A stretch of 37,497 nt of DNA from IMG/VR virus record IMGVR_UViG_3300025010_000147, positions 1 to 37,497 of that record, one strand, 5' to 3'. The position numbers were made by a program, and so were the translations under genes. This document shows, piece by piece, positions 12,223-31,085 of the stretch. The stretch is from a virus. Below the pieces are notes generated by a model. The model worked only from the letters and a program-made list of their open reading frames with translations, had not been told where the DNA came from and did not search any database. Positions within the stretch are counted from its first letter, which is position 1. Each line of letters opens with the position of its first letter.

Positions 12223-12498
12223 ATGTTATCAGTGGGGCAGAAGTTGTGGTTTGTGCCAAGAAGGGGAGAGGCGCAAGAGGTTGAAGTGATTAAGGTGGAC
12301 CGGAAGTGGGCGTATATTTCGGGCAGTCGTCCAGATCTGCGGGTTGATGTTGAAACGCTTTCTGCTGATGGTCGTGGCTACTCTTCCCCCGGCCAATGCC
12401 ACATGGACCGCGAGGCTTACGAATTGGATGTGACGCGGAGAAAGGAGTGGTCAGAATGGTATGGCGACTTGGGGCCACATCCCCGCCGCCGCACCTGA
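12223..12498 (+). CDS. Beta-barrel domain phage protein (91 aa)
   Basis: The ATG follows TTTGGAGGTTTT. The product begins MLSVGQKLWFVPRRGEAQEV and continues IKVDRKWAYIS, then RVDVETLSADGRGYSSPGQC. This fits the small beta-barrel proteins found in many phages, with a conserved G-Y-S-S-P-G motif. The function is unknown. A 28-residue gene starts inside its 3' end in another frame. Confidence 0.7.
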   Translation: MLSVGQKLWFVPRRGEAQEVEVIKVDRKWAYISGSRPDLRVDVETLSADGRGYSSPGQCHMDREAYELDVTRRKEWSEWYGDLGPHPRRRT

Positions 12499-16125: not shown

Positions 16126-18030
16126 ATGACAGACCCGAGCAAGACCCCGCCCGACTTGCATTCAACGCTTGTCCAGTGGTTCGAGGACAGCGAAGACTCC
16201 ACGCAGGACGCCCGCAAGCTGGCAGAGAGGGACGCTGATTACTACGACGGCAAGCAACTCACGCCGGAAGAGTACCGCACCCTTAAAGCCCGCAGACAGC
16301 CCCCCGTTGTCAATAACCGCATCAAGCCCAAGATCGACTTCATGCTTGGCGCCGAGCTGAAAACCCGCACAGACCCCAAAGCCTTCCCCCGAAATCCCAA
16401 CGTAGACGAGGACGCTGCGAACGCCGCAACGGACGCGCTGAGGTACATCTGCGATGCGACCAAGTTTGAGCGTGTCCGGTCCCTCTGCTACGAGGATGGG
16501 CTCAAATACGGCAGCTACGGCGGTCAGATCGTCGTTACTCCCAAGGGGAACGACTTCAAGATTGATTTCGTTCATGTGCCTTGGGACCGGATCTTCTACG
16601 ACTACCACTCCCGCGCCAAGGATTTCAGCGATGCCAAGTACAAGGGCGTTGTGATCTGGCAGGACCGGGAAGACGCGCTTGAAATGTTCCCTGGCAAAGA
16701 CGGCATCCTAGCCAATACCATGGCAAGCGTCACAGCCGGTCAGACCTACGATGACAAGCCGCAGAACCGTTGGGCCGACAAGGGGCGCGACAGGGTGCGC
16801 GTCGTCTACATGGAGTACAAGAAGGGCGGCGAGTGGTATTTCTGCTATCTCACCAAGGGCGGATTTCTGCGCGAACCGGCGAAGATGCCCTTTGTCAACG
16901 ATGACGGCGAATCGGTACCGTCGCTTGAGTTTCAATCCCTTTTCGTTGACCGCGACGGCAACAGATACGGCCAAATCCGGCAGTACATCGACATGCAGGA
17001 CGAGATCAACAAGCGCCGGTCGAAAGGGATCCACCTTATCAACTCGCGGCAGACCATCGGGGAAAAGGGCGCGGTGGCCGATGTCAACGCGGCCAAGCGC
17101 GAACTTGCCAAGCCGGACGGTCATGTTGAAATAACGCCAAGCATGAAGTTCGACCTTCTCCCGACCAACGACATGAGCGCCGGTAACTTCCAGATGCTGC
17201 AGGAGGCGAAAGCCGAAATTGACGCACAGGGCCCGAACGCTGCACTGGTAGGCGGCGAGAAGCGCGACCTTTCCGGCAGGGCGATACAGGCGCTGCAGGG
17301 TGGCAGTAACACGGAGACGGCGATACAGACGGATGGACTCAGAGATTGGGAACACCGCGTTTATCGGCTCATGTGGTACTGCGTCAAGAAGTACTGGACC
17401 GCCGAAAAGTGGTTCCGCGTCACCGATGACGAGAACGCGCCGAAGTATGTCGGACTGAACACGCCTTCAACCGCTGGCGAAGAGTTCATCAAGAAGCAGC
17501 AGAAGTCGGGGCATCAGCTTGACGAGGAGATGGTGCAGCGGATCATGATGGACCCCGCAGCACAGCAGCCGGTGGTGACGAACAATGTGGCCGAACTGGA
17601 CGTTGACATCATCCTGGAGGACGTACCGGACACTGTGACGATTCAGCAGGAGCAGTTTGAGAGTCTGACACAGCTATTCCCGACCGTTCCCGAGCAACTC
17701 AAGCCTTTGACGCTCGAAATGCTGATTCAGGCGTCAACCCTTCGCAACAAGCAACGCTTTATCGACAAGCTGCAGGGCAAAGGGGAGGAAGAGAAACCGG
17801 ACCCAATGGCCGAAATGCAACAGCAGATGCAGCAGATCATGATGCGGCTCGAAATCGCAGAGAAACAGGCCAAAATCGCCAAGATCGAGACAAGCGCAAT
17901 GCTCGACCTTGCTAACGCGGAGGCGGCGGAAATAGGGCAGGATTTGGCAGAATACAACGCCATTGTGCAGGACTTCGAGAGGGTGAATAACCCGCAACCT
18001 CAGCAACCGGCACAAGGGGCGCAGCAATGA
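16126..18030 (+). CDS. P22-type portal protein
   Basis: The 634-residue protein has the P22-like portal layout. It shows RRQPPVVNNRIKPKIDFMLG near residue 60, a central DKGRDRVRVVYMEY strand region, the helix QYIDMQDEINKRRSKGIH, and a Gln/Met-rich C-terminal coiled coil (AEMQQQMQQIMMRLEIAEKQ). Portals form the dodecameric DNA gate at one capsid vertex and bind terminase and tail parts. The ATG follows CCAGGAGACAAC. The last bases overlap the next ATG. The length is below P22 gp1 (725 residues) but normal for relatives. Confidence 0.92.
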   Translation: MTDPSKTPPDLHSTLVQWFEDSEDSTQDARKLAERDADYYDGKQLTPEEYRTLKARRQPPVVNNRIKPKIDFMLGAELKTRTDPKAFPRNPNVDEDAANAATDALRYICDATKFERVRSLCYEDGLKYGSYGGQIVVTPKGNDFKIDFVHVPWDRIFYDYHSRAKDFSDAKYKGVVIWQDREDALEMFPGKDGILANTMASVTAGQTYDDKPQNRWADKGRDRVRVVYMEYKKGGEWYFCYLTKGGFLREPAKMPFVNDDGESVPSLEFQSLFVDRDGNRYGQIRQYIDMQDEINKRRSKGIHLINSRQTIGEKGAVADVNAAKRELAKPDGHVEITPSMKFDLLPTNDMSAGNFQMLQEAKAEIDAQGPNAALVGGEKRDLSGRAIQALQGGSNTETAIQTDGLRDWEHRVYRLMWYCVKKYWTAEKWFRVTDDENAPKYVGLNTPSTAGEEFIKKQQKSGHQLDEEMVQRIMMDPAAQQPVVTNNVAELDVDIILEDVPDTVTIQQEQFESLTQLFPTVPEQLKPLTLEMLIQASTLRNKQRFIDKLQGKGEEEKPDPMAEMQQQMQQIMMRLEIAEKQAKIAKIETSAMLDLANAEAAEIGQDLAEYNAIVQDFERVNNPQPQQPAQGAQQ

Positions 18031-19406
18031 CCATAACGCTCGAAACGCCCGATACGTGGCCGGGGAGCGAATCGCCAACGAACCCGAGCGGCGAGCGGCG
18101 CAATGTGCTGACCGTCAACGGGGTGGAGCCGGATAATGACGGCAATGTGGAGGTGCAGACAGCCGGAGATATGCCCGCCGCACTGATCGTCCAGGCGCTT
18201 CAAGCCGCATATCCTCGCCTTACGTGGCTCATGTCCGGTAACTCGACCGATGGACAGCCCGACACGGCGACAGCGGCGGCGATTGACGCTTTCATGACCG
18301 CAACCGGCGTGGCAAGCGATTACGTCGCCTTCCTCGACCTGGGCGCTGCGGCGGCATCGGCGGGAACGTTGACCATCGCCAACGCCTACTCCGCATCGTC
18401 GGCGGATAACGTGGTTCTTGTGCAGTCGCATGGTGCGCTGGTTATTGCCAACGCCTACTCAGGGAGCTTTGCCGACAACATAACACTCTCTAACCCCTCG
18501 CTGCTGGTTCTGGCGATTGACGATGCCTACAGCGGCAGTTTTGCCGATGCCGTCACCCTTGTACAATCCCACGGCGTACTAGCCATTGCTGACGCTTACA
18601 GTGCGAGCTTTGCCGATGCGGTGACGCTGGCACTCGCTGGCGGGGCCCTGACCATTGCAGATGCTTATTCGGCATCGTCGGCAGATAATGTGGTGCTGAC
18701 AGCGGGTGTTTCGGCCCCCACTCAGCCGGTAATCAGCGTCACCCCTGGCGACACCACAAACGTGATCGCCCTCATATCGGGCGGCGTCGGCGCTACCTCC
18801 TACAACCTCAAATGGGGTACCGTAGCAGGAACCCGCAGCAACACGATAACCAGTGTCACCCTCCCGTACACGCATACGGGGAGGACCAACGGGACCGCGT
18901 ACTATTACAGCGTCGTGGCTATCAACGGGGCGGGGTCGGTGGAGTCGGCAGAGGTCAGCGGGACACCGGTTGCGGCATCCACCAACTTTTATACCCAAAA
19001 TTGGGATCTCGCAGCTACCAACGCTACCACTTATGATGGATGGATTAGCGGGACATCTGGAGTCGATGGGATCGCCCACGTGGCCAATACCTTTGCATGG
19101 AGTGCCCCTAATAGCTTTGCTTTAGGAGGTGGAGACGGAGCATCGGAGGGAACTGGTTGGCTAGAGCGCACCATGACCATCGCGGCAGGGACTCTTAGTT
19201 TCGGCCTTAGACTCGATAGTGGCTCGCCGGAACCGGTGTATGTCAAAGTCTACGTTGACGGCGCTCAAGTGGGCCTAACTGGTGGTTACAGTGCCAATAA
19301 CTCGAATTACACTATAACCATATCCTCCGGCAGCGTTATTCGGTTCAGCGGAACCAGTCTCGCCGGGGCAATGCACATTGATAACATTTCCATCCCGATA
19401 CCGTAA
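18027..19406 (+). CDS. Repeat-containing virion surface protein with FN3-like domain
   Basis: The 459-residue protein overlaps the portal stop. Residues about 113-228 are five tandem units of the form (L/V)xIAxAYSxSxADxVxL. Residues about 233-318 read like a fibronectin type III domain (PTQPVISVTPGDTTN to AYYYSVVAINGAGSVESAEV). The C-terminal 140 residues are beta-rich and resemble a carbohydrate-binding jelly-roll. Its place between portal and scaffold suggests a capsid decoration or fibre protein. The next gene carries the same repeats at its end. Function inferred from architecture. Confidence 0.7.
   Translation: MTITLETPDTWPGSESPTNPSGERRNVLTVNGVEPDNDGNVEVQTAGDMPAALIVQALQAAYPRLTWLMSGNSTDGQPDTATAAAIDAFMTATGVASDYVAFLDLGAAAASAGTLTIANAYSASSADNVVLVQSHGALVIANAYSGSFADNITLSNPSLLVLAIDDAYSGSFADAVTLVQSHGVLAIADAYSASFADAVTLALAGGALTIADAYSASSADNVVLTAGVSAPTQPVISVTPGDTTNVIALISGGVGATSYNLKWGTVAGTRSNTITSVTLPYTHTGRTNGTAYYYSVVAINGAGSVESAEVSGTPVAASTNFYTQNWDLAATNATTYDGWISGTSGVDGIAHVANTFAWSAPNSFALGGGDGASEGTGWLERTMTIAAGTLSFGLRLDSGSPEPVYVKVYVDGAQVGLTGGYSANNSNYTITISSGSVIRFSGTSLAGAMHIDNISIPIP
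18364..18713 (+). repeat. Five tandem units of the AYSxSxADxVxL repeat
   Basis: Five units of about 22-24 codons recur, each centred on AYS-[AG]-S-[SF]-ADN or ADA. Unit junctions such as LVQSHG and LALAGG also recur. The repeat is clear in protein and still visible in DNA, so expansion may be fairly recent. Confidence 0.8.
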
Positions 19407-19415
19407 GGATATGAC

Positions 19416-20732
19416 ATGACAACCATACTCCAAAATGCGGCATCGTGGATTGCATCGATCAATCCGCCCCATCCAGACTATGGCAGCACTACGCAGTCAT
19501 ACATCCAGAGCGTGCATCAGTCGGTTATCGACTTCACTCTGGTAAGCGATCTTTCTGGCAACCCCGTCAACCAATGGCGGGGGTATCGCTACTGGCTAGG
19601 CATGACCACTATCGTGCCAGAAAATCCGGTTGTCTACGCCTCAAACGATAATGCCAATTGGACATTACAGTTCTGGATGGATGACGTTAGCTGGTATGAC
19701 AGCGTAGACGAAATAATTGGACCCGTGGCAGAAGATGCTGAAATCCTCTATGACCCCGTAGGCGACCAGCTCGTATGCTATTGGGTCAGGACGGACGAGA
19801 CCATAGTGTCTGACTACAACGGCACTGTAACGCCCGGCCCTGGAGTCATGCGGCGCACCTACTCGGCTGCTGGGGTGTTGTCTGCTGCCACATGCGTACT
19901 GCCGTGGGAAGGGTTCATCCTGTACTCCAACTCCCCCGCCGTAGTGCGCGAGGATGCCACACACTGGCACATGTTCGGCGTGGTGCAGGATACCACCTAC
20001 CTCTCTGCTAAAACCGCAGATTATCAGCGAATCACTTATCGTTTTTCGGTGGACGGCATTACGTGGGGGGCGGTGCAGTATTTGGGCACGGTGGCCGAGT
20101 TTACCGCAGCTTATCCGGGCTTTGAACCCAACCACATCACGGCAGTGGCAAATCCTGCTATTTCGGGACAGATTGACCTATTGATAAACGCGCTAGTGAC
20201 GCCAAGACCTGCTTCGTGGCTGAGTGGGTGCCGACTGTTTCACGCCGTTGTCAACCTACCCGACCCGACCGCAATCAGTTATCCCTTGGCACCTACGGCG
20301 GTACTTGCTCCTGTCGCTGGCAGTTGGGATGACATCGGCATTTACAGATCCGGTTTTACGCTGACAGCGGCTAGCGGCGAGATGACCATGCGCCTCTGGT
20401 ACTCCGGCATAGCGAACACCGATTCTTACCCCGAGAGTTGCCGCACTGGCTACACGGAAGGGGTGGTCTACCAGTATGACGCTGGCGGGGTGATTACACC
20501 ATATGGCGAGTTCACCATCGCCGACGCCTACAGCGCATCATCCGCCGACAACATCGCCCTCGCCCTGGCAGGCGGCACTTTCGCCATAGCCGGTGCCTAC
20601 AGTGCCAGCTCTGCCGACAATCTGACCCTCTCGCAATCAAGCAGCGTCACATGGCCGATCCGTTCCATCACCGGAGACGCCCGAACCCTCAACAAAACCC
20701 TGCGGCGGTTCGTCGCGGGAACATGGCAATAA
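19416..20732 (+). CDS. Propeller-like virion protein with C-terminal surface repeats
   Basis: The 438-residue protein has a beta-rich body (residues about 1-360) with recurring W and Y residues (QFWMDDVSWYD, YRFSVDGITWGAV, DDIGIYRSGFTL, MRLWYSG). This is the pattern of a five-bladed beta-propeller such as glycosidase-like folds. Residues about 365-410 are two units of the repeat found five times in the upstream protein. The end is WPIRSITGDARTLNKTLRRF. Catalytic residues cannot be assigned. A receptor- or glycan-binding virion protein is plausible. Confidence 0.6.
   Translation: MTTILQNAASWIASINPPHPDYGSTTQSYIQSVHQSVIDFTLVSDLSGNPVNQWRGYRYWLGMTTIVPENPVVYASNDNANWTLQFWMDDVSWYDSVDEIIGPVAEDAEILYDPVGDQLVCYWVRTDETIVSDYNGTVTPGPGVMRRTYSAAGVLSAATCVLPWEGFILYSNSPAVVREDATHWHMFGVVQDTTYLSAKTADYQRITYRFSVDGITWGAVQYLGTVAEFTAAYPGFEPNHITAVANPAISGQIDLLINALVTPRPASWLSGCRLFHAVVNLPDPTAISYPLAPTAVLAPVAGSWDDIGIYRSGFTLTAASGEMTMRLWYSGIANTDSYPESCRTGYTEGVVYQYDAGGVITPYGEFTIADAYSASSADNIALALAGGTFAIAGAYSASSADNLTLSQSSSVTWPIRSITGDARTLNKTLRRFVAGTWQ
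20508..20640 (+). repeat. Two further units of the AYSxSxADxVxL repeat
   Basis: Two units (FTIADAYSASSADNIAL and FAIAGAYSASSADNLTL) close the propeller-like protein. They match the five units of the upstream gene, indicating exchange or duplication between the genes. Confidence 0.8.
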
Positions 20733-20745
20733 AGGAGAAAATGAC

Positions 20746-21120
20746 ATGGCTAAGAAATACGCAGACGCAGTATTTGACGCGGCACTCGCAAAGATCGCCA
20801 CAGGGACCACTCTCAGCTTTTGCAGCGCGGAACCCGCCAACTATGCCGGTATCGCAGCGGTAAAGCTGGCAGGCGTGACGGTGACAGCGGGCGACGGCAA
20901 CGGTGATTACACCATCGCTGACGGGCCGGTAAGCGGGCGCAAAGTCACCGTGGGGGCGCAGACGGGCATGACCCCCACAGCCAACGGGACCATCATCTAT
21001 GCCTGCGTTGACGATGGTACGACCCTTCTTGCCGGTACCAGCGTGACCAGCCAGGCAGTCACGACCGCGCAGACGTGGGACTCGCCCGCATTCGCTTTCG
21101 GCATCACGGACCCGGTGTAA
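20746..21120 (+). CDS. Conserved-type virion protein (124 aa)
   Basis: The product MAKKYADAVFDAALAKIATG continues with TTLSFCSAEPANYAG, then DGPVSGRKVTVGAQ and a beta-rich C-terminus ending AFGITDP. This layout is familiar from small structural proteins of marine and soil podoviruses that lie near capsid genes. The exact role is unknown. The ATG follows AAAGGAGAAAATGAC; an overlapping ATG five bases earlier opens a shorter frame. Confidence 0.65.
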   Translation: MAKKYADAVFDAALAKIATGTTLSFCSAEPANYAGIAAVKLAGVTVTAGDGNGDYTIADGPVSGRKVTVGAQTGMTPTANGTIIYACVDDGTTLLAGTSVTSQAVTTAQTWDSPAFAFGITDPV

Positions 21121-21254
21121 GTAATAATTCTCTTGACTTAGCACCCGAAACAGAGTAGGGAAACAACACAACTGAGTAACACAAAACCGCCGCCGGGTAA
21201 TCAACGGGCGCTTACACGGAGCCGCCATCCACAAAGGGCGCGAAGGAGATGCAA

Positions 21255-21929
21255 ATGGAAGACTGGCTTGAGGATGCCGTAATCGAAGAACCGGAAGTGG
21301 CCGCGCAGGAGACGGTGGGGGAAACGGGCGAAGAAGCAACTCAGGACGCCGCTGAGCCCCCCGCTGAGAAGCCTGCAGCAAAGCCCGAAGAAGGACTTCA
21401 GGCCGCACTCCTTGCAGAGCGCCGGAAGCGGCAGGAGCTAGAGCAGAGGCTGGCCGCAAAGCCGGAAGAGCCGAAAGCCGACTTTTGGGAAGATCCTGAA
21501 GCGCGACTAGCCCAGACCGAGCAAAAGTTTCAGCAGCAGCTTATCAACCAGAAGCTCGACATGTCCGAAGCCTTCGCCCGCGACAAGTACGCCGATTTTG
21601 GCGACAAGATCGTCATCTTCGAGGCGATGGTACAGGAGAACCCCGCACTCTATCAGCAGATGCTGGCGCAGGCGAACCCCGCCGATTTCGCCTACAGGAC
21701 GGCGACGAACCAGCAGAAGCTGCAGGAGATGGGCGACCCGACCGCGTACGAGCAGAAGCTGCGTGAGAAGATCACCGCAGAGATTGAAGCGAAGTACGCG
21801 ACCAAGGGCGCGGCAGAGCATCAGAAGCGCGCAGAACTCCCTGGCACGCTGGCTACGGTATCCGGCGCAGGGGGAGCAACAGCACAAACGTGGAGCGGGC
21901 CTACCTCGCTTGACGACCTACTCAGATAA
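21255..21929 (+). CDS. Scaffolding protein
   Basis: The 224-residue protein is acidic and Ala/Glu/Gln-rich. It has a disordered N-terminus (MEDWLEDAVIEEPEVAAQE), a long coiled coil (LLAERRKRQELEQRLAA to EARLAQTEQKFQQQL) and a helical C-terminus. These are typical scaffold features, and it lies directly before the major capsid gene. AAGGAG is six bases from the ATG at 21255 but adjacent to the ATG at 21249, so the second is chosen. It would guide prohead assembly and then be removed. Confidence 0.82.
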   Translation: MEDWLEDAVIEEPEVAAQETVGETGEEATQDAAEPPAEKPAAKPEEGLQAALLAERRKRQELEQRLAAKPEEPKADFWEDPEARLAQTEQKFQQQLINQKLDMSEAFARDKYADFGDKIVIFEAMVQENPALYQQMLAQANPADFAYRTATNQQKLQEMGDPTAYEQKLREKITAEIEAKYATKGAAEHQKRAELPGTLATVSGAGGATAQTWSGPTSLDDLLR

Positions 21930-22006
21930 GCCTTTACCGGAGAACACCGATCAGGCACAACCATTTAACCGGAACGTCGTGAGACAGTCCCGTAAGGAGA
22001 AACACC

Positions 22007-23125
22007 ATGGCAAATACCGCCGTAGCTGCAGGCCTCACTGTTCAGCAGTGGGATGACAAGTTTTTTACCGAGTACATCCGCGCCAACCGCTTCAAGAAGT
22101 ATATGGGCAAGGATGAGAACAGCATCATCCAGATGAAGGAGGATCTGACCGCCAAGAAGGGCAAGACGGTTACCTACTCCCTGGTCAACTCCCTCTCCGG
22201 CGCGGGCGTCACCGGTTCCGCTACCCTCGTCGGTTCCGAAGAGAAGATGAACAGCCGGTCCTGCACCGTCACCGTCAACAAGATCCGCAACGCGGTCGTT
22301 GTGCCGGAGATTGATGAGCAGTACAGCGCCATTTCCCTCCGCGATGCCGGCCGCGTGGTCCTGAAAGACTGGATTCTGCGCAAGACCAAGACTGACATCA
22401 TCAACGCCCTCGGTCAGGTCGGCGGCGACTACGCAGGCACCATCTACACCATCTTTCAGGCAGCAGGTGGGGCAACCACCACAGCCCAGGATATCTGGTG
22501 CGCCGCCAACTCCGACCGCGTTCTTTTTGGGGCCGCAACGTCCAACTACTCCGCGACCTTCGCAACCGCTCTCGGCAACGTGGACGACTCCGGCGACCTG
22601 ATCACCGCCGCCCGCCTGAACCTGATGAAAGCCCTCGCCAAGACCGCCTCTCCCGCGATCCGCCCCGTCACCGTCAACGGTGATGAGGAATGGTATGTGG
22701 TCTTTACCGGTACCAAGAACTTCAAGCGGCTCCAGGAGGACTCGACCATCGCCACCGCCAACCGCGACGCCCTTCAGCGCGGGAAGGACAACCCGATCTT
22801 CACCGGCGACTCCCTCATGTACAACGGCATGATCATCAGGGAGATCCCCGAAATCGGCGATTGCGCCATCACCGGTGGCACCTCTGCCGACGTGCAGCCG
22901 GTATTCCTCTGCGGCGCCCAGGCTCTCGGCTTCGCAGTGGCGCAGAGGTCCAAGACCGTGACGGATGACACGGACTATGGCGATAAGGCAGGGGTAGCCT
23001 TGCAAGAGATTCGCGGGATTCAGAAGTTGATGTTCGGAAGCGATGCTACTGTAGATACCACCACCAAGAAGGACAATGGTATCTTCACCGGCTTCTTCGC
23101 TGCACCTGCTCTGGCAAGCGCCTAG
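22007..23125 (+). CDS. Major capsid protein (N4-gp56-like family)
   Basis: The 372-residue protein fits the N4-gp56/DUF4043-type major capsid family. It begins AVAAGLTVQQWDDKFFTEYI, then the conserved IIQMKEDLTAKKGKTVTYSL, then VPEIDEQYSAISLRDAG. The E-loop and P-domain-like segments follow, with YVVFTGTKNFKRLQEDSTI near residue 230. The ATG follows TAAGGAGAAACACC, a strong site suited to high expression. It forms the icosahedral shell. A free-standing HNH gene follows directly. Confidence 0.9.
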   Translation: MANTAVAAGLTVQQWDDKFFTEYIRANRFKKYMGKDENSIIQMKEDLTAKKGKTVTYSLVNSLSGAGVTGSATLVGSEEKMNSRSCTVTVNKIRNAVVVPEIDEQYSAISLRDAGRVVLKDWILRKTKTDIINALGQVGGDYAGTIYTIFQAAGGATTTAQDIWCAANSDRVLFGAATSNYSATFATALGNVDDSGDLITAARLNLMKALAKTASPAIRPVTVNGDEEWYVVFTGTKNFKRLQEDSTIATANRDALQRGKDNPIFTGDSLMYNGMIIREIPEIGDCAITGGTSADVQPVFLCGAQALGFAVAQRSKTVTDDTDYGDKAGVALQEIRGIQKLMFGSDATVDTTTKKDNGIFTGFFAAPALASA

Positions 23126-23135
23126 GTAATCGTAC

Positions 23136-23165
23136 TTGACTTTTCGTATACCATTGTGGTATCTT
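23136..23165 (+). promoter_or_regulatory. Dedicated promoter of the second HNH gene
   Basis: TTGACT (23136-23141), an 18-base spacer and TATCTT (23160-23165) form a sigma70-like promoter in the 61-base gap after the capsid gene. The -10 box overlaps the left arm of a 13-bp inverted repeat, so its transcripts would lack most or all of that arm. Confidence 0.55.
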
Positions 23166-23189
23166 GCTGACAAAGGAGATACCACAATG
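23152..23189 (+). promoter_or_regulatory. 13-bp inverted repeat covering the HNH start codon
   Basis: CATTGTGGTATCT (23152-23164) is perfectly complementary to AGATACCACAATG (23177-23189), with a 12-base loop. The right arm ends with the ATG start and the loop side holds the AAAGGAG ribosome site. In capsid read-through mRNA this stem should block initiation. Confidence 0.75.
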
Positions 23190-23852
23190 CGAAAACAATG
23201 CACGGTTGACGGATGTGAAGAAAACGTAAAAGGCTTGGGTTTCTGCGCTAAGCACTACCAGCAGTACAAAAAGGGGCGGGACCCGCACGACAAGACACCT
23301 CCCCCCCCCAAGGTGTGCAGCGTAGAAGGATGCAACAGGCCCCACACAGCGCACAGCTTCTGCTCCATGCACCTATTGAGGTGGCAAAAGGGTCAAGACC
23401 TCAGGACGCCGAACAGGAACGGGCTGTCATTAAGAGAGAAATTTGACAAGTATGTTGTAAAGGGCGACCAGTGCTGGGGGTGGAAGGGCCATAAAAACGG
23501 TGACGGGTACGGGACCATTAAGGACAGCACCGATTACAGTGGCAAGAAGGCCCACAGAGTTTCTTACGAACTGCATGTAGGCAAAATCCCCAAGGGAATG
23601 CTTGTTTGCCATAAGTGTGACAACCCTGGATGCGTTAACCCTGACCACCTTTTCCTCGGAACCCAGCATGACAACATGATTGACATGGCGATAAAGGGCA
23701 GGCACACGGGCAAGTTAACCCCTGATGAGGTTGCCAAGATAAGAACGTTGTCAGGGACAGACACCCACAAGAACATAGCTTCACTCTTTGGGCTAAGCCA
23801 ACAAACAGTGTCAGCAATCATCAACCGTAAAACATGGAAGCACCTTCCATAA
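23187..23852 (+). CDS. Free-standing HNH endonuclease with zinc fingers and HTH
   Basis: The 221-residue protein has two N-terminal C-x(3-4)-C...C-x2-H units (CTVDGCEEN...GFCAKHY and CSVEGCNRP...SFCSMHL), probable zinc fingers. An HNH_3-type nuclease core follows at about residues 85-165: HRVSYELHVGKIPKGMLVCH, then GCVNPDHLFLGTQHDN. The C-terminus (LTPDEVAKIRTL to LFGLSQQTVSAIINRKTW) is a helix-turn-helix. Such enzymes nick or cut DNA lacking the insert and spread with their host gene. The ATG is 23187; upstream in-frame codons lie within the promoter. Confidence 0.92.
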   Translation: MRKQCTVDGCEENVKGLGFCAKHYQQYKKGRDPHDKTPPPPKVCSVEGCNRPHTAHSFCSMHLLRWQKGQDLRTPNRNGLSLREKFDKYVVKGDQCWGWKGHKNGDGYGTIKDSTDYSGKKAHRVSYELHVGKIPKGMLVCHKCDNPGCVNPDHLFLGTQHDNMIDMAIKGRHTGKLTPDEVAKIRTLSGTDTHKNIASLFGLSQQTVSAIINRKTWKHLP

Positions 23853-23864
23853 AGGAGATACATC

Positions 23865-24287
23865 GTGGCCGGAGAGACAACTTTGGATTTAGTCCCAACC
23901 GCCCCCCTGCTGACTTCCAAGTCCGTGGGGCAGCTCGTAGCACAAAAGCACGTTGTCGCAATCAGGACCACCGACCTTGCGACCAACGACATCACCGGAG
24001 TCTGCAAGGTTCCGGCAGCGTCTACCGTATTCGGCTTTTTCCTTCATACCGATGATCTCGACAGCAACGCATCCGAAGCCCTCGTGTGGTCCGTCCTCAT
24101 CGACACCACCGTTGTACAGGCAGGGATCACCAACGCGACCGCGAAGGCCGGTACCTTCTTCGCCTGCTCCACTGGTCCCGTCACCGTGGACGCCGACACT
24201 GTTGTGTCGCTCAAGGCGACTACGGCGGCAGGGACCGCAGCGGCCGGCAACTGCACCATCACCCCCGTCTACACCACATCCGCATAA
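23865..24287 (+). CDS. Virion protein following capsid (140 aa)
   Basis: The GTG start follows AAAGGAGATACATC. The beta-rich product (VPAASTVFGFFLHTDDLDSN, then WSVLIDTTVVQAGI, then NCTITPVYT) resembles head decoration or cement proteins in composition and position. It was probably adjacent to the major capsid gene before the HNH insertion. No family is firmly recognised. Confidence 0.6.
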   Translation: MAGETTLDLVPTAPLLTSKSVGQLVAQKHVVAIRTTDLATNDITGVCKVPAASTVFGFFLHTDDLDSNASEALVWSVLIDTTVVQAGITNATAKAGTFFACSTGPVTVDADTVVSLKATTAAGTAAAGNCTITPVYTTSA

Positions 24288-24310
24288 GGAGGAGGGGCGG
24301 CAACGCCCCT
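24286..24310 (+). other. SD followed by a GNRA hairpin that shortens the distance to ATG
   Basis: AAGGAGG (24286-24292) is followed at once by AGGGGCG-GCAA-CGCCCCT (24293-24310), seven pairs with a GCAA tetraloop. The next ATG (24318) is seven bases after the stem. With the stem folded, the SD would sit at normal distance. It might also act as a weak terminator. Confidence 0.45.
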
Positions 24311-24317
24311 TAACTCT

Positions 24318-24554
24318 ATGGTCGTCAAGTACATCGGACCATCGGCATCGGTGGCCACTTTCGGACAAGAATTCATGCAGGGCGTAGCGGCGGCAGTTTC
24401 CGACCCTCACGCCTTCCGCAAACTCAGCAACAACCCCACTTTTGAGGTGGTCGAACATGGTGATAGGCAAACTGGCAGAGAAGGTGATGCAGAAGTTGGG
24501 AGTATTCGACCGCAGCAGCGGAATAGCGGCGGAAGACCTCGAAAACGTCGCTGA
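24318..24554 (+). CDS. Small head-tail region protein (78 aa)
   Basis: The first 48 residues (MVVKYIGPSASVATFGQEFM, then FRKLSNNPTFEVVE) look like small phage structural proteins. The last 30 residues are low-complexity, run in a different frame over the next gene and are Arg-rich. The SD is distant unless the intervening hairpin folds. The function is unknown; head completion is a reasonable inference from position. Confidence 0.5.
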   Translation: MVVKYIGPSASVATFGQEFMQGVAAAVSDPHAFRKLSNNPTFEVVEHGDRQTGREGDAEVGSIRPQQRNSGGRPRKRR

Positions 24555-24813
24555 CGCCTACAAAGCCGTGTACTACGTCCTTTCGGATGACGGGCTCGTC
24601 TCATGGGCCTACTCCGCAAGCGACGAAGCCGACATTCCCGACCGTTTCAGCCTCTCGCTGATAAACCTCATCGCCGCCGAAATTGCCGACTTCTACAGCG
24701 TTCCCCCACCGGGGGAGGGGTGGCTGGCAACCAAGGAGATGGCAACGCGACAAATCCGTAAGCAGCTTGCCAGTGGACAGCCGACAGAGACGGTTACTGC
24801 GGAGTACTACTGA
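24457..24813 (+). CDS. Head completion / gp4-like tail accessory protein
   Basis: The ATG at 24457 has GAGGTGG six bases upstream. The 118-residue helical product (VIGKLAEKVMQKLGVFDR to DIPDRFSLSLINLIAAEIAD) resembles the P22 gp4-type accessory factors that bind under the portal. It is shorter than P22 gp4 (166 residues). The neighbours agree: gp10-like protein follows immediately with a TGATG overlap. Moderately sure of the class. Confidence 0.6.
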   Translation: MVIGKLAEKVMQKLGVFDRSSGIAAEDLENVADAYKAVYYVLSDDGLVSWAYSASDEADIPDRFSLSLINLIAAEIADFYSVPPPGEGWLATKEMATRQIRKQLASGQPTETVTAEYY

Positions 24814-26270
24814 TGCAGACCCGCTCTCTCCCCATAGGCAACGGCGTCACCCTGGACATCAACGACACCTCTGCAAAGGACGGCGTTTCGATTTCCTTCG
24901 TCAACGCGTACACCGACCGCAGCGGCGCAATCCGCACAGTACCCGGATGCACCGAATACGCCGACACCGGAGCAGGCGATGTGCCGGTATGGTCCTACTA
25001 CTCCACCGACCTTGAGGTATTGGTTATCGTGGCAGGCGGGCGGATTTTCACGCAGACTGAGCAGGATGGGGCGCTCATCGAGGTATCCGGCGCGACCATT
25101 TCTCTGACCTCCCCTCCGACCTTCACCGAAGATGCCGACAACATCTTTTTCGCCGCCGACTCCGTGATTTACAAGTTGCAAGGAACCGCAGCAACCGCCG
25201 TTCCGAATTCGCCTTTGCACGTGACGAGCTTGGCCTACATCGGCGGCTACCTCAAGGCAAGGGGAGAGCTGGCAACTAGCGCAGTTGCAGGCGATACGCA
25301 CTACAGCGACGATAAAGCCAACGGGTACGCGGCATGGGAGGTCTACAACAACGAGTCCCGCCCTGACGCGCTGATGGCGATTGTGGTGGCTTACGAGCAG
25401 ATCTACAACATCGGGCGCACGTCGCTTGAGGTCAGCTACATCGACGGCACCGTACCTTTTAGCGTCAACAAGAACGCCGCGCAGCACTTTGGGACCATGG
25501 CGCCTCACTCGGTAGTTTTCGACGGCGAGAGCCTGTACTACCTCACGGAAGTGGCGAAGAGCCGAAAGATCATCCAGCTTGCCGGTGGCGGCAGTCCTCA
25601 AATTATCTCCTTCCCCATTGACGTGCCAATAGAGAAGTTTGAGAGAGTGGACGACGCGCAGGGCTTCATTATGGCATGGGCGGGGCAGAATGGGTACGCG
25701 ATCACCTTCCCGACCGCCAACGCCGTAGTGGATGAGCAGTACTGGACCGGCATCACCCTTTTCTATCACCTGCAGAGTAAGGCATGGATCATTCTCGGCC
25801 AATGGGACGCAGCGACAGCGACCTATGGACCCTATCGCGGTGTCTCCTTTACCTTCGTGGAGCCTTGGGGCTTGCGGCTCATCGGAGGCAGGGACGGCAA
25901 GCTGTACAAGCTCCAGGCTACGCAGGGGCAGGATTATACGGACGCACCGGAATTCCTGCACAGATGGCGCGATAACGGGACGAAGGAATGGGGCAACGGG
26001 CGGCAAGTGTCGCTAGGGCTGGCAGGGAGATACGAGCAGTTCCCCTCCATCCGGCAGTGTGGCGCATACCGCAGCAGACAGCATCAGTTCATCTTTACCG
26101 ACCACACCGACGCAGGGGAGATATTCCGCGCTTCGATCAAGACCGGCCACATCTCACACAAGGTACCGAACAAGAAATCCGCAGTAATGTACCGCTATGA
26201 CGTGCAGTGCGGGCAACCGGAATTTATGCTTAACGGCGTGGTCGAGCAGTTCGACGTGCTTAGGAGCTAG
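24813..26270 (+). CDS. Packaged DNA stabilization protein, P22 gp10-like
   Basis: The 485-residue protein matches the Phage_stabilise family. It begins MQTRSLPIGNGVTLDINDTS and has a GCTEYADTGAGDVPVWSYYS segment, repeated beta-propeller blades with SVVFDGESLYYLTE and IMAWAGQNGYAITFPTANAV, and a C-terminus with MYRYDVQCGQPEFML. P22 gp10 plugs the tail channel below gp4 and keeps packaged DNA inside. Together with the portal and gp4-like gene it defines a P22-type tail machine. The ATG overlaps the previous stop. Confidence 0.9.
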   Translation: MQTRSLPIGNGVTLDINDTSAKDGVSISFVNAYTDRSGAIRTVPGCTEYADTGAGDVPVWSYYSTDLEVLVIVAGGRIFTQTEQDGALIEVSGATISLTSPPTFTEDADNIFFAADSVIYKLQGTAATAVPNSPLHVTSLAYIGGYLKARGELATSAVAGDTHYSDDKANGYAAWEVYNNESRPDALMAIVVAYEQIYNIGRTSLEVSYIDGTVPFSVNKNAAQHFGTMAPHSVVFDGESLYYLTEVAKSRKIIQLAGGGSPQIISFPIDVPIEKFERVDDAQGFIMAWAGQNGYAITFPTANAVVDEQYWTGITLFYHLQSKAWIILGQWDAATATYGPYRGVSFTFVEPWGLRLIGGRDGKLYKLQATQGQDYTDAPEFLHRWRDNGTKEWGNGRQVSLGLAGRYEQFPSIRQCGAYRSRQHQFIFTDHTDAGEIFRASIKTGHISHKVPNKKSAVMYRYDVQCGQPEFMLNGVVEQFDVLRS

Positions 26271-26271
26271 T

Positions 26272-26715
26272 ATGGAATGTTGGGTAAGTCGTGAAGCGTT
26301 AAATGAGATGGTGTCAGAAGGTGAGCGTGTGTTCCCTCTAGAAACGGGGGGGCTATTGCTGGGGTATTGGGGCAATGGCTCGCCAGTTGTTACAACAGCG
26401 ATAGGCCCCGGCCCAAAAGCGACACATGAGCGGTTAAACTTCGAACCCGATTACGACTGGCATACATTAGAAGTTGGCAGGCTTTACAAAGATAACGATA
26501 AGTTGTTCTATCTCGGAGATTGGCACACTCATCCATGTGGGCCGTCATTCCCTAGTGAGATGGACACTGGCGTGTTGCACATGCTTAAAAACAACGAAGA
26601 CGCTCAAACGCCAAAACCCTTGATGCTAATTCTTGGTAACCACCTTGACCGCTTAGGAGCGCATTGTCTGACTTCAAATGGGGTAGAGTCGCTAGATATA
26701 AAGGTATTTGACTAA
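26272..26715 (+). CDS. JAB/JAMM (MPN) metalloprotease
   Basis: The 147-residue protein carries a complete JAMM zinc site: Glu24 in PLETGGLLLG, then His85-Thr-His87-Pro, six residues, Ser95, two residues, Asp98 (DWHTHPCGPSFPSEMD). This is the signature of Prok-JAB isopeptidases that remove ubiquitin-like proteins or cut similar C-termini. The ATG follows TAGGAG. The gene is visibly richer in A and T than its neighbours and lies between tail genes of a podovirus, where lambda-type tail-tip JAB/NlpC proteins would not be expected. The target is unknown; a defence-related or virion-processing role is possible. Confidence 0.9.
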   Translation: MECWVSREALNEMVSEGERVFPLETGGLLLGYWGNGSPVVTTAIGPGPKATHERLNFEPDYDWHTLEVGRLYKDNDKLFYLGDWHTHPCGPSFPSEMDTGVLHMLKNNEDAQTPKPLMLILGNHLDRLGAHCLTSNGVESLDIKVFD

Positions 26716-26741
26716 TGGCGGGCGAGAACCCGCGTAAATGC

Positions 26742-27126
26742 TTTAGCCAGCCGGCTATACAAGACAGACAGAAAGGGAGACAGACATGATCATCAAAATT
26801 AAGCAAGGCGCAGTAGATCAAAACTCTTGGCGGTTCCACGATGGCGTTCATGAGTTCAGCTATGCAACCGTGCAACGCTCCGATATCCCTCTCTTAGGCG
26901 GTGTGCCTCATAACGAGCAGATGGGTATTCAGTATGAAGGTGACGATGGTGTTGTGAGGGAAAATCACTTTGTGGGGGCGGCAATTCCGGATTATTGCCT
27001 ATGCCTTACCTTCATCGACTTTAACGGCAAACCCCACGAGGTTTATACCGACGCCCCGGTTTATCTACTAAATGACGGCGGCAAAACCATAGAGCGTTTG
27101 GCATAACCACTAGCTGGCTGGCTAAA
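26742..27126. repeat. 16-bp inverted repeats flanking a small gene
   Basis: TTTAGCCAGCCGGCTA (26742-26757) and TAGCTGGCTGGCTAAA (27111-27126) are complementary at 15 of 16 positions, with the mismatch a G-U pair in RNA. They bracket the gene at 26786-27106. Each arm is itself nearly palindromic, so each can also fold alone. They could be cassette ends, paired RNA hairpins or recombination sites. Confidence 0.65.
26786..27106 (+). CDS. Unknown small protein beside the JAB gene (106 aa)
   Basis: The ATG follows AAAGGGAGACAGAC. The product is beta-rich and acidic (IIKIKQGAVDQNSWRFHDG, then LGGVPHNEQMGIQYEGDDG, then YTDAPVYLLNDGGKTIERL). I recognise no family. There is no membrane segment, and the C-terminus does not end in Gly-Gly. 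It is AT-richer than its flanks, like the JAB gene, and sits inside the inverted repeat pair. The two may have entered together. A role as partner or substrate of the JAB protein is possible but unsupported by motif. Confidence 0.65.
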   Translation: MIIKIKQGAVDQNSWRFHDGVHEFSYATVQRSDIPLLGGVPHNEQMGIQYEGDDGVVRENHFVGAAIPDYCLCLTFIDFNGKPHEVYTDAPVYLLNDGGKTIERLA

Positions 27127-27137
27127 TAAAGGAATTT

Positions 27138-28073
27138 ATGTCCGAAAACCCGCAAACAACCCTCCCCCCTGTCCCGCGTGAGCCGATAGTAAGCAGCGGC
27201 GGGCAGACCTCAGCGCAGTGGACCCGCTGGCTGCAACAGGTGCAGCGTGTCCTTTCTTTCGCGGGCGGGATAGCTTGGGGGATCGTCAACAAGGCGGGAT
27301 CTCGGTTAACTGACATCACAATCCGCACCCATGCCATGTTGCAGGACGTTCTTGGATGGAGCAGCGACGCCGACGACGCCCAGGTGCGGCACATTTCCAA
27401 CGCTGACGGAAAGGTCTGGCAGGACCATGTTGACGAGACAGACGGCAATCCGCACGGCACCGACCATGCCATGTTGGATGAGATAGCCGAACTCGATCCG
27501 ACCAGCACGGATCCGACCAAGGACCGGCACCTTTCCGACGCACAGGCTAAGGTGTGGCAGGGCCACACGGAAGCCACTGACAACCCTCACGCGACAGACC
27601 TTGAGCAAGTGACGGCAGCAGGGGCCAACTCTCCCATTCTGTTCTCCTGCGGCGGCAAAGTCGCTTTCACCCCCGAAGGCGGCGTGGCCGTCAAGCTCAC
27701 CAACCGCACAGGGGCGGCATCGGTCAAGGGAAGCGTCCTCACCATGTCAACCGCCTACGATAACGCTTTCGCCCTACAGACAGCCGAATATGACGGCGTG
27801 GCAGTGGCATACGAAAGCGGCGTGGCAGACGGGGCGGAATCGTGGGTAGTGGTATCGGGCATCGCGGAAGTGCTACTGAAAGACGGCACAGCGGCGACTC
27901 ACGGCGCGTGGACGAAATGCGCCGATACGGACGGACGCGCAGAGGCGACAACCCCGCCAAGCGGCATAGGGGCGCTTTCTACGGCAGACCATTTCAAGGA
28001 AATCGGGCATTGCATCGAGAGCAAGACCGCAGGAACGGACGTGCTGGCAAAGGTCGTGCTGCACTGGAACTAA
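27138..28073 (+). CDS. Fibre/needle-like virion protein (311 aa)
   Basis: The N-terminal 55 residues are helical (TSAQWTRWLQQVQRVLSFAG). Residues about 60-155 carry a repeated motif: HAMLQDVLGW, then DHVDETDGNPHGTDHAML, then GHTEATDNPHATD. The C-terminal half is beta-rich. Repeated NPHxTD motifs of this kind occur in phage tail fibres and needles, perhaps as metal-binding or trimeric stalk units. It follows the gp10 region, where P22 has its needle gene. The ATG follows ATAAAGGAATTT. Structural role inferred. Confidence 0.6.
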   Translation: MSENPQTTLPPVPREPIVSSGGQTSAQWTRWLQQVQRVLSFAGGIAWGIVNKAGSRLTDITIRTHAMLQDVLGWSSDADDAQVRHISNADGKVWQDHVDETDGNPHGTDHAMLDEIAELDPTSTDPTKDRHLSDAQAKVWQGHTEATDNPHATDLEQVTAAGANSPILFSCGGKVAFTPEGGVAVKLTNRTGAASVKGSVLTMSTAYDNAFALQTAEYDGVAVAYESGVADGAESWVVVSGIAEVLLKDGTAATHGAWTKCADTDGRAEATTPPSGIGALSTADHFKEIGHCIESKTAGTDVLAKVVLHWN

Positions 28074-28086
28074 GGAGAAACGCGCG

Positions 28087-29133
28087 GTGATAAAAACCCT
28101 ATCCCTCTGCCCCACATGCTTCCGCAAGATCGAGGCCGAAATTGTCTACCGTGACGGGATGGTGATGATGGACAAGGAATGTCCTGAGCACGGCAAGTTT
28201 TCAGCTGTTGTGGAAAGGGACATCCAACACGTTTCCAACTTTTACCACCGTGGCACTCTTGGCAACAACAACACCATCATCATCCACACTCACGACCAAT
28301 GCAACATGGCGTGTCCGTGGTGCTATTACCCCATGGGAAGCGAACCGATGCACCCGTTCAGCTATTACGATCAGGTGCTATCGGCCTACAAGGGCTCGTT
28401 CAACCTCCTTATGTCGGGCGGGGAACCTACGTTGAGGCCGGACTTTTTCGAGTTTGCAGCGGAAGCCCACAACTCCGGATGGGGCATCAGTGCCATTACC
28501 AACATGTTGAAGCTGGCGGATCACGATTTCATGATTCAGGCCCTTGGCTCTCCCGCGCTCAACCATGGCGACATGCTCCGGTTCGCCGTTTCAATGCAGC
28601 ACCCGAAGAACTACCCCGAAGAGGTCTATAACCTCAAGGTGCAGGCGATAGAGAACCTTGAACGGGCGCAAAAGCGCGTCATGTGCGCCATGTTTAGCGT
28701 GCAGACACTGGATGAACTGGACTGGATACGCGAATGGTACGACTTGACCAAGGGCGGCTATCCGATGTTGCGAATCCGCACCATGTTCAAAAATTGGGGC
28801 AACAAGGGCGATGAGAACCGGCTTTTCCTGTCGGATCTGCACAAGGCGTTCTTGGAGAAGTTCGCAGACCTTCACCCGCGCATTTCCGAAAGGGTCGAGC
28901 ATTCGAACATGTACTGCATCTATCTGGAAATGGACGGCGGTATGCAGGTATCGCTCAGTTCCGCGCCTACGGTCGAGAATCTTGACTATCATCAGGCATC
29001 GCGGCCCGTCTACATGCTGGCGATGGATGGGCGCTGCTACCCAGTCCCGATAACGCAGGTAATTAATGAGGGAATCGAAGCCGGATGGAAAGACGGTTTT
29101 AGGCTCCAACAAGGAGGTACGGTATGTGGGTAG
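28087..29133 (+). CDS. Radical SAM enzyme (CX3CX2C) with N-terminal zinc knuckle
   Basis: The 348-residue protein has the radical SAM cluster motif CNMACPWC (Cys72, Cys76, Cys79) and the SAM-contact motif SGGEPT near residue 110. The N-terminus has LCPTC (Cys8, Cys11) and CPEHG (Cys32, His35), a zinc-ribbon-like preface known in COG1964-type radical SAM proteins, a group that includes tetraether lipid synthase relatives. Reductive cleavage of SAM would give a 5'-deoxyadenosyl radical; the substrate is unknown. It is not QueE-like, because QueE has a longer first spacing. The GTG follows AAGGAGAAACGCGCG, and the end overlaps an ejection gene by ten bases. Confidence 0.88.
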   Translation: MIKTLSLCPTCFRKIEAEIVYRDGMVMMDKECPEHGKFSAVVERDIQHVSNFYHRGTLGNNNTIIIHTHDQCNMACPWCYYPMGSEPMHPFSYYDQVLSAYKGSFNLLMSGGEPTLRPDFFEFAAEAHNSGWGISAITNMLKLADHDFMIQALGSPALNHGDMLRFAVSMQHPKNYPEEVYNLKVQAIENLERAQKRVMCAMFSVQTLDELDWIREWYDLTKGGYPMLRIRTMFKNWGNKGDENRLFLSDLHKAFLEKFADLHPRISERVEHSNMYCIYLEMDGGMQVSLSSAPTVENLDYHQASRPVYMLAMDGRCYPVPITQVINEGIEAGWKDGFRLQQGGTVCG

Positions 29134-29804
29134 CGGCGGCAGTGGTAGGCGCGGCAGTAGTTGGCGCAGTAGCATCAAACGTGGCAGCAAACAAGGCATC
29201 GAACGCCGCCGACGATGCATCGAAGAGACAGGCATCATCGGCCAAAACTGCCCTTGAACTGGAAAAGGAGCAGTTTGAATACCAGAAGCAGCTCAACGAG
29301 CCGTTTTACAACATGGGCCTTCCTGCGGCGGCATCCTATGCTTCAGCTATCACAGGGGAGCCCCAGAAGTATGTCGGGCTTGACGGTGTGGAACGCACGT
29401 CTGAGGTGTGGAGGCCGGAAGAGACGGACGCTTACAAGTGGCAGCAGAGCCAGATGGAGAAGAACACCAACCGCTCACTTCGGGCAATGGGGCGATACAA
29501 CTCCACGTACGGCATGGACGCTATCACGAAGGGTAACCGCGACCTCGCCGCGTCCGAGTATGACCGGCAGTTGGGAAGGTTATCGGACCTCACCAACGTG
29601 GCAAGGGGCGGGGCTTCGTCGCTGTCGGCACTGTCGGGGCAGTACGCCAACAACGCCGGAAACAACATCGTGAACTCCGGCAACAATCAGGCTAACTCGA
29701 TGCTGGCAAGCGGGATGATAAAAACCAACGCCATGAACAACAATGTCCAGGGGCTTTACTCTCTAGCCAACATGGGGATGCAGTACTACGGCAACAAGAA
29801 ATAG
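29124..29804 (+). CDS. DNA ejection (internal virion) protein, first of three
   Basis: The 226-residue protein begins with a hydrophobic Ala/Val/Gly segment (WVAAAVVGAAVVGAVASNVA), then a coiled-coil region (ALELEKEQFEYQKQLNEPFY), then an Asn/Ala-rich C-terminus. This layout fits the P22 gp7-type DNA transfer proteins that leave the virion and enter the envelope. It is followed by two longer proteins of the same presumed module. The ATG has AAGGAGG seven bases upstream, within the radical SAM gene. Confidence 0.7.
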   Translation: MWVAAAVVGAAVVGAVASNVAANKASNAADDASKRQASSAKTALELEKEQFEYQKQLNEPFYNMGLPAAASYASAITGEPQKYVGLDGVERTSEVWRPEETDAYKWQQSQMEKNTNRSLRAMGRYNSTYGMDAITKGNRDLAASEYDRQLGRLSDLTNVARGGASSLSALSGQYANNAGNNIVNSGNNQANSMLASGMIKTNAMNNNVQGLYSLANMGMQYYGNKK

Positions 29805-29813
29805 GAGCCGACA

Positions 29814-31085
29814 ATGGATGTTAACTACCTCGCATATGCCGATGCTGTCGGACGCAACAATGCCAACGCAGACGGGTTAAAAAGCCTGAGAGAAACGCTG
29901 GAAAAGCAAAGCGAGTTGGCACGGCTTGCACCCCAAGAGGCGCAGACTGCAAAGCTCCGCGATATGCAGATTAAACAGGCGCAGATAACGATTGACGATG
30001 CCGTAGCCAAACAGGGTGCGTTGTCTTCAATCGGTGGCACGCTGCAGGGCGGCTATGAGCAGCAGATGAGGCGGGAGCAGGAACAGAAGCAGACGGAAGC
30101 CAAGCAGAAGGGGCTTGAGACGTACCTGAACACCCTCAAGGCGCTTGACGGTATGTCGAACCTCGACCCGAAGGTTAAGACGGACATTGGGAAGCATTTC
30201 CTTTCTCAGAATCCTGAGTATGCGCCGATTGCCGCAAACCTCACTTTCGTGGACTCGCAGAAGGTCAAAGCCGCTCGGCAGTTCGGCGACGGCGAACTGA
30301 AAGACCCGACGACCGGCCAGCCGCTTCCCGCGGGATATTACGAAACAGAGGGGGAGTGGACCGGCGATGCATCGCAACCGGTCAAGCTCGTTGCTTACAA
30401 GCTTGTACCGGAGAAGCCCGATCAAGAGGCGCTGCTTGATAAGCGATTCGCCAGCCAGCAGAAGTTACAGACTGAGCAGATCGCGGCACAGGACCGGCGC
30501 ACGGCGCAGCAGATAGCCGCGGCAGATAGGCGGGCGGCGAAGTCTGGAACCCGCGATACGATGCAGGGCGGCAAGCCCACAGGTGGCAAAATCCTCCCCG
30601 CTGGCCAACTGGAATCCATCGCAGACATGAAGCGCGTCAAAGATGTCCTGGCGGAAGCGTCCGACTTGCTCAAGGGCGGCGGAATCGATACCGGACCCGT
30701 TTCAGGACGCTTGCAATCTCTCGGCGCAAAGGTCGGGCTCGCATCTGACAACTTTGTTAACCTTCAGCAGAAAATGCAGACGGCAGAGAACATCATGCTT
30801 AAGCTCCGATCCGGCGCGGCTGTCACCGAGAGCGAGTACCAGCGGTTTAAGAAAGAATTCCCGCGCACAAGCGACACTCCCGAAGTGCGGGACCGCAAGA
30901 TGTCTAACGCGATCCAGTACGCCTCAACACTCATGGACAGCAAGATGGACATTTACGAAGAGGGCGGCTACAGAGTGCCGCAGAGCGTCAAGAGCGGCAA
31001 CAAACCGGCGCAGAAGGGCAACGCACAGCCGAAACAGGGACAAACCAAGAAGGGCGGCAGGTTCACCATCATCGAGGTGAAGTAA
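29814..31085 (+). CDS. DNA ejection (internal virion) protein, second of three
   Basis: The 423-residue protein is mostly helical and rich in Gln, Lys and Ala (QEAQTAKLRDMQIKQAQI, then MRREQEQKQTEAKQKGLETY). It has a long coiled-coil section at about 20-115, another near 205-250 (QKLQTEQIAAQDRRTAQQIA) and a basic C-terminal tail. Size, composition and order match gp20-like ejection proteins. The stop overlaps the next ATG (TAATG). No enzyme motif is seen. Confidence 0.65.
   Translation: MDVNYLAYADAVGRNNANADGLKSLRETLEKQSELARLAPQEAQTAKLRDMQIKQAQITIDDAVAKQGALSSIGGTLQGGYEQQMRREQEQKQTEAKQKGLETYLNTLKALDGMSNLDPKVKTDIGKHFLSQNPEYAPIAANLTFVDSQKVKAARQFGDGELKDPTTGQPLPAGYYETEGEWTGDASQPVKLVAYKLVPEKPDQEALLDKRFASQQKLQTEQIAAQDRRTAQQIAAADRRAAKSGTRDTMQGGKPTGGKILPAGQLESIADMKRVKDVLAEASDLLKGGGIDTGPVSGRLQSLGAKVGLASDNFVNLQQKMQTAENIMLKLRSGAAVTESEYQRFKKEFPRTSDTPEVRDRKMSNAIQYASTLMDSKMDIYEEGGYRVPQSVKSGNKPAQKGNAQPKQGQTKKGGRFTIIEVK

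Follow-up and report, generated by a model that had tools for sequence, protein, structure and literature searches.

A start-codon hairpin enclosing a promoter-like site, recurrent in zinc-finger HNH genes directly behind phage capsid genes

The second HNH gene of this viral genome starts inside a perfect hairpin whose left arm overlaps the -10 box of a promoter-like site, and the same geometry, with compensatory changes in the arms, is found in related leaders behind capsid genes. In our opinion, the inverted repeat is probably a translational switch that is set by the position at which the mRNA starts. Capsid read-through mRNA would contain both arms, the hairpin would bury the start codon and the HNH endonuclease would not be made. 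From a private sigma70-type promoter, polymerase would begin just past the left arm; the short private mRNA, being without that arm, would therefore form no hairpin and its start could be translated. We infer that both transcripts exist, that they differ in translation and that the private promoter can work early. In what follows, the window is the whole stretch of 37,497 nucleotides that was analysed. The features concerned are these:

22007-23125, plus strand: major capsid protein gene (Phage_capsid_3), by profile match
23136-23141, plus strand: putative -35 box TTGACT, by weight matrix, with an 18-nt spacer to the -10
23152-23164, plus strand: left arm, CATTGTGGTATCT, 13 nt, by inverted-repeat search
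23157-23165, plus strand: putative extended -10, TGG TATCTT (-10 proper at 23160-23165), overlapping the left arm
23170-23172, plus strand: predicted 5' end of the private transcript, 5-7 nt past the -10, from the position of the -10
23172-23178, plus strand: Shine-Dalgarno AAAGGAG, by sequence, mostly in the loop, its last 2 nt in the right arm
23177-23189, plus strand: right arm, AGATACCACAATG, 13 nt, its 3' end being the ATG at 23187-23189
23187-23852, plus strand: HNH_3 endonuclease gene, 221 aa, with N-terminal Cys/His zinc-finger-like repeats

The product of this gene matches HNH_3 (E 1.7e-14), a homing-endonuclease-type nuclease domain, and its ATG lies 61 nt from the capsid stop codon. 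An earlier note on this DNA had described a perfect 13-bp inverted repeat with the ATG in its right arm, and both the repeat search and the sequence itself confirm it: the arms are 100% complementary around a 12-nt loop, and the ATG lies entirely within the right arm, so that the buried element is the AUG, with the Shine-Dalgarno sequence mostly looped out. The repeat searches covered distances of up to 60 nt across the window and up to 150 nt within 22900-23500; when an exact seed of 9, arms no shorter than 11 nt and a distance no greater than 60 are required, the repeat at 23152-23189 is unique in its class across the 37,497 bases, and other inverted repeats turn up once the settings are loosened. 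Folded as RNA, 23145-23195 has a z of -5.9, a stability that none of 200 shuffles equalled. Opening the Shine-Dalgarno and start region in the long RNA would cost 18.6 kcal/mol, which is reached by none of 1000 shuffles, and in a transcript begun at 23170 about 0.9 kcal/mol.

The same note placed the left arm across the -10 box of a private promoter. Indeed, five of the six bases of the -10 fall within the left arm, and a sigma70 weight matrix ranks the site second among all positions on both strands of the window, so that a promoter-like site within the hairpin is backed by the sequence. The predicted start is downstream of the entire left arm, and AAAGGAG would stand at the 5' end of such an mRNA. 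The palindrome holds a minus-strand promoter-like site as well (23150, minus strand, rank 15 of all positions), which would fire into the 3' end of the capsid gene.

Leaders of related genes were scored by what it costs in energy to open the start region (-14 to +2) within -60 to +15, expressed as z against dinucleotide shuffles, with a threshold of z at least 2.5. In the first set, 10 of the 24 viral zinc-finger HNH leaders passed, as against 4 of 331 viral control ORFs; the counts of 6/69 for viral HNH genes without an N-terminal zinc finger and 2/80 for relatives on genome contigs led us to reject a device common to all HNH_3 genes. After a scan with the N-terminal module, 77 zinc-finger HNH hits were available, 56 of which were kept (duplicates, edges and leaders with N were dropped), along with 700 of 840 controls. 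The threshold was then passed by 29/56 zinc-finger leaders versus 16/700 control ORFs (Fisher 1e-25, with relatives that are not independent). These 700 ORFs are mechanical and some are spurious; genes next to a capsid gene make the better control, and among non-HNH genes behind related capsid genes z reached 2.5 in 1/52 and 1/132 and 3.5 in none (the 132 distinct leaders were scored from 143 such genes). When transcripts were cut at -22, the mean opening cost of 45 hairpin leaders fell from 19.5 to 4.6 kcal/mol, and that of the 700 controls from 7.2 to 5.5.

A validation set was fetched by protein similarity, with scans seeded by N-terminal pieces of proteins whose leaders mostly carry the hairpin and with the gene filter widened to admit a CCIK N-terminus. 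From 135 genes, 22 leaders were kept, all less than 90% like the earlier ones and from loci of the same subfamily (6 were dropped for edges or N, 61 as at least 90% like earlier leaders and 46 as duplicates). With thresholds unchanged, 16/22 reached z 2.5 and 14/22 reached z 3.5. Failures at z 2.5 amount to 27/56 and 6/22 zinc-finger leaders, including 7/34 and 5/21 behind a capsid gene. Since a Shine-Dalgarno rule chose the start codons, several of these (e.g. L551, L552, L555, L556 and L559) may be wrong starts, and they are still counted as failures. A scan driven by the capsid gene gave only five HNH loci among 148 usable of 160 and served mainly as a control; four were left after removal of duplicates, two of them were new, and one of the two new ones passed.

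These counts bear on the simplest alternative, that one striking palindrome was picked from a genome by chance or ascertainment. It is true that the repeat had been chosen by eye, that the test family was assembled after the repeat had been seen and that the first set served to fix the thresholds. Against this, the 37 kb hold no second repeat of its class, and the effect recurs at unchanged z thresholds in the 22 further leaders; the 29/56 HNH and 1/132 capsid-neighbour counts speak in the same direction, and we regard chance as extremely improbable.

Promoter geometry was analysed in 28 of the 29 hairpin leaders (one with N was dropped) and in 400 of the controls, by taking the best sigma70-like site within 100 nt. 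Its predicted start fell at -32 to -15 in 19/28 hairpin leaders (31% in shuffles), as compared with 7/27 hairpin-free leaders and 122/400 controls (30%), and in 14 of the 22 validation leaders, where 6.4 were expected. The binomial p for this clustering is 7e-5 in hairpin and 8e-4 in validation leaders, with related leaders treated as independent. Hairpin leaders had a mean promoter score of 8.1 versus 4.2 in controls, and the score exceeded 95% of shuffles in 15/28 versus 28/400. Not all of them conform: the best promoter-like match lies outside -32 to -15 in 9/28 and scores no better than shuffles (p > 0.05) in 13/28. Placed between the midpoint of the left arm and -14, the predicted start was counted in 20/28 hairpin leaders versus 11.8 expected. 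Eight of the 13 validation leaders with both a hairpin and a start at -32 to -15 have that start at most 1 nt from the 3' end of the left arm; the left arm would therefore be the very stretch from the -10 to the start site. There is a second class (e.g. L303, L548 and L284) with the left arm further upstream and the -10 in or beside the loop. In both classes the private mRNA, as predicted, is without the left arm.

By similarity, the hairpin is present in 27 of 34 zinc-finger HNH genes behind a major capsid gene versus 2 of 22 elsewhere, and in the validation set in 16/21 behind a capsid gene and 0/1 elsewhere. PHROGs scans covered 30 of 55 upstream neighbours. Eighteen of these belong to hairpin-bearing genes: 15 are phrog_283 (major head protein), that of L305 is phrog_1328 (major head protein), that of L094 is weakly a major tail family and that of L157 is a family of unknown function. 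Hairpin genes behind a capsid gene start 56-111 nt after the capsid stop, with one exception, L259 (30 nt). The layout recurs mainly in zinc-finger HNH genes directly behind the major capsid gene. Since protein subfamily and site go together, it is not separable which of the two the hairpin follows. The suggestion of a general control of mobile endonucleases is too wide, given the 2/22 away from the capsid gene and the 6/69 among viral genes without the zinc finger.

Of the eight closest full capsid loci (L003-L010), four have a relative of the window's HNH gene behind the capsid gene (L003, L004, L006 and L010), and in the other four (L005, L007, L008 and L009) phmmer found no match to it there. 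Presence and absence at one site among close relatives is what a free-standing homing endonuclease would show. L003 carries the same HNH gene as the window, and the proteins of L004, L006 and L010 are 46-48% identical to the window's. The leaders of L006 and L010 have the same design in unlike sequence (z 4.9 and 5.3), and L004, a close relative at the same site, has a weak hairpin with a z of only 0.88. In L005, L007 and L008 a GC-rich stem-loop stands between the capsid stop and the next gene; it is absent in the window.

One may ask, then, whether the stem-loop of the HNH leaders serves the capsid mRNA, as a 3' stabiliser, a processing site or a weak terminator, and touches the HNH start as a by-product. 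The GC-rich stem-loops in the three loci without this HNH gene would fit such a role. Against it, the genes next to capsid genes without HNH keep their start open (the 1/52 and 1/132 above). Moreover, in HNH leaders the start region is covered by the right arm and the predicted starts gather downstream of the left arm, and the right arm is not followed by a T-run. We consider this role for the stem-loop quite unlikely.

Proteins that are 59-84% identical carry unlike arms; for example, L287 has TTACACTACT/AGTAGTGTAA and L292 has TTACGCTACCCCAT/ATGGGGTAGCGTAA, with proteins 84% identical. A MAFFT alignment of 14 leaders, made without structure fitting, contains a 7-pair helix with 81.6% of cells paired and 18 cells changed on both sides. 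Variation of the arms with compensation in related HNH leaders was the point on which the earlier note had staked its reading, and this is what we see: unlike arms still pair, with a covariation score of 0.432 versus 0.179 in shuffles (0/500), and the helix collapses on sliding. Two other counts on this alignment, doubly changed pairs and additional pair types, were not above shuffles (72/500 and 159/500). The window's hairpin, represented there by L003, is three columns off in register; with a hand-adjusted register and 13 leaders without the window's, the picture is the same, and L260 and L265 fail in the outer stem. The left region finds its best partner among 45 in its own right arm in 25 of the 45 hairpin leaders (0/60 in controls). 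L260 and L265, which have lost the outer stem, show another pairing, between the promoter spacer, AGACGTGCT, and early codons, AGCACGTCT; the switch may have been rewired there.

The palindrome could also be read as DNA, as an operator to which the endonuclease or another dimer binds and so represses its own promoter, like I-TevI. The repeat does overlap the promoter, and autorepression by I-TevI is on record (PMC2988022). Further, 10 nt of the window's leader recur as reverse complement in the capsid 3' end, as a copy of the homing site would. The mismatches inside the stems point elsewhere: 13 are G-U and one is A-C (p 0.0009; stems defined by Watson-Crick pairs alone, in 38 of 78 leaders), an asymmetry between strands not expected from DNA binding, which favours the coding-strand RNA over a DNA operator. 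The skew is smaller (G-U to A-C, 31:18) among the first mismatches on either side of the stems, where the fixed ATG biases the count. Arms that differ between close relatives would also be odd for the site of one protein family. As for the shared words between leader and capsid gene, their mean length is 7.0 nt within a locus versus 6.5 nt between loci, and the word is longer than all others in 5/43 loci, including the window's relative L003, so that homing-site mimicry by the leader appears weak. The capsid 3' end (23050-23087) shares words of 8-10 nt with both hairpin arms (23148-23185), as could be expected of an operator that resembles a homing site. Overall, a DNA operator is quite unlikely in our opinion.

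In the named GenBank record ctkAd229 (MW202691), a hairpin with z 5.1 behind the coat gene includes a perfect TATAAT in its left arm. Of the five named phage records examined, it alone has the hairpin; none was found in phiGT1 (two genes), Vibrio 1.191.O, ST20 or Rousseau (two genes), and phiGT1_9, an HNH gene behind the capsid gene of an isolate, has no such hairpin (z 0.6). Megablast of window positions 16126-30000 against named phages gave no match, and the protein searches brought up no close isolates. The window's HNH protein was 60-80% identical to 6 of 1437 records, and with two capsid-linked HNH proteins of relatives as queries all records were below 60% identity.

The earlier note had drawn a parallel between this gene and the first HNH gene of the window, for which the features are:

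6688-6756, plus strand: long imperfect hairpin over the Shine-Dalgarno sequence, by fold prediction
6695-6723, plus strand: promoter-like site TTGCAC, 17 nt, TATAGT, rank 18, inside this hairpin
6759-7166, plus strand: first HNH_3 gene, 135 aa, by profile match

Its hairpin opens with a z of 2.3 in a -85 context (3/200 shuffles); the standard -60 window, which no longer includes the outer left arm, gives -1.35. This gene has no N-terminal zinc finger, and the capsid gene is 15 kb away. The layout claimed for both genes is thus found at 23187, while at 6759 only a weaker and imperfect version of it is present, and the parallel remains plausible in this weaker form. Of the overall reading, the hairpin over the start, the promoter-like site inside it and the covarying arms have stood; the breadth of the generalisation and the full parallel at 6759 have not.

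Hairpin control of this kind has well-described precedents. I-TevI, I-TevII, I-TevIII, segB and Aeh1 mobE have a hairpin that hides the ribosome binding site on a long mRNA and a private promoter whose mRNA is without the left arm; in T4, the long mRNA that is silenced belongs to the early or middle class, and the private promoter is late or middle/late (both from PMC2988022). The principle put forward for the window gene is not new, since I-TevI, segB and mobE have the same (PMC2988022). These genes and the window's are alike in being endonuclease genes with a hairpin over the start or ribosome binding site and a private promoter whose mRNA is without the left arm (both predicted here), and mobE, like the window gene, is a free-standing HNH gene. 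They differ in protein family and insertion site, and in that the T4-like genes use a phage late (or middle/late) promoter, whereas in the window the promoter is sigma70-like and the mRNA that runs in comes from the capsid gene; the T4-type combination of a phage late or middle promoter with an early or middle silenced mRNA was not found in the window. Unlike in the T4-like cases, many leaders here have the -10/start region itself as their left arm, and close relatives carry arms of different sequence. The T4 genes e (lysozyme) and soc also have a hairpin over the translation start, and late promoters inside the 5'-strand region of gene e give mRNA without that strand (PMC3014915). These, however, are in the same source ordinary late phage genes with T4 late promoters and not mobile endonucleases. 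Among the matches listed in our literature search, as judged by titles and the starts of abstracts, we recognised no report of the device outside T4-like phages. Homing genes are described as clustering near capsid and other essential genes in PMC10448857, in the main text of which the words hairpin and promoter are absent. The novelty of the present leaders lies in the recurrence behind capsid genes, the sigma70-type promoter within the hairpin and the position on the capsid mRNA.

In the IS10 and IS50 transposase genes, a fold-back over the start blocks translation from read-through mRNA, and the mRNA from the element's own host-type promoter is translatable. There the terminal region of the transposon is used; the window gene, by contrast, is an HNH_3 endonuclease gene and not a transposase gene, and its relatives vary in the sequence of their arms. 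By analogy, IS10-type protection from outside transcription would be the nearest logic for a mobile gene. Control by sRNA and the 5'-UTR is described in PMC8450116.

Strong transcription is likely for a capsid gene. In other phages, the capsid gene is a late gene. With the capsid mRNA as the long mRNA and a host-type private promoter, the timing would therefore be reversed relative to T4: the sigma70-like private promoter could work early, and the hairpin would silence the late capsid mRNA. The position on the capsid mRNA suggests such an opposite timing, which is the boldest and least tested part of our proposal. A search for phage RNA polymerase (PF00940) gave no match, but the controls were also without a match, so that nothing follows from it.

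Put more generally, and tentatively, since we give it a little less than an even chance, a self-excluding promoter hairpin, rebuilt often with unlike sequences, may be standard in zinc-finger HNH homing genes behind phage capsid genes. The timing would be the reverse of T4's: a host-type promoter would supply the endonuclease, perhaps already at the onset of infection, and the flood of late capsid mRNA would yield none. In this way the element would protect both itself and the phage that carries it from a transcription unit that ranks among the strongest of the genome. If so, about 50 nt would act together as promoter, switch and ribosome site, a compact and recurrent solution. It would extend what was a T4 curiosity to small, mostly uncultivated phages and make the timing of homing endonucleases testable outside T4. 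For annotation, a simple clue is a capsid gene followed after some 56-111 nt by an HNH gene whose start codon is linked by the arms to the -10 region.

Three other genes of the window deserve mention. The one at 28087-29133, in the structural-gene half of the phage, encodes a radical SAM protein whose N-terminus has a zinc ribbon of HMPTM type (PF23545, PF04055). A ProQ C-terminal-like phage protein (PF24203), possibly an RNA-binding protein, is encoded at 12223-12498, and a class 3 lipase domain (PF01764, E 4e-16) lies at 35559-36119, near the end of the phage record.
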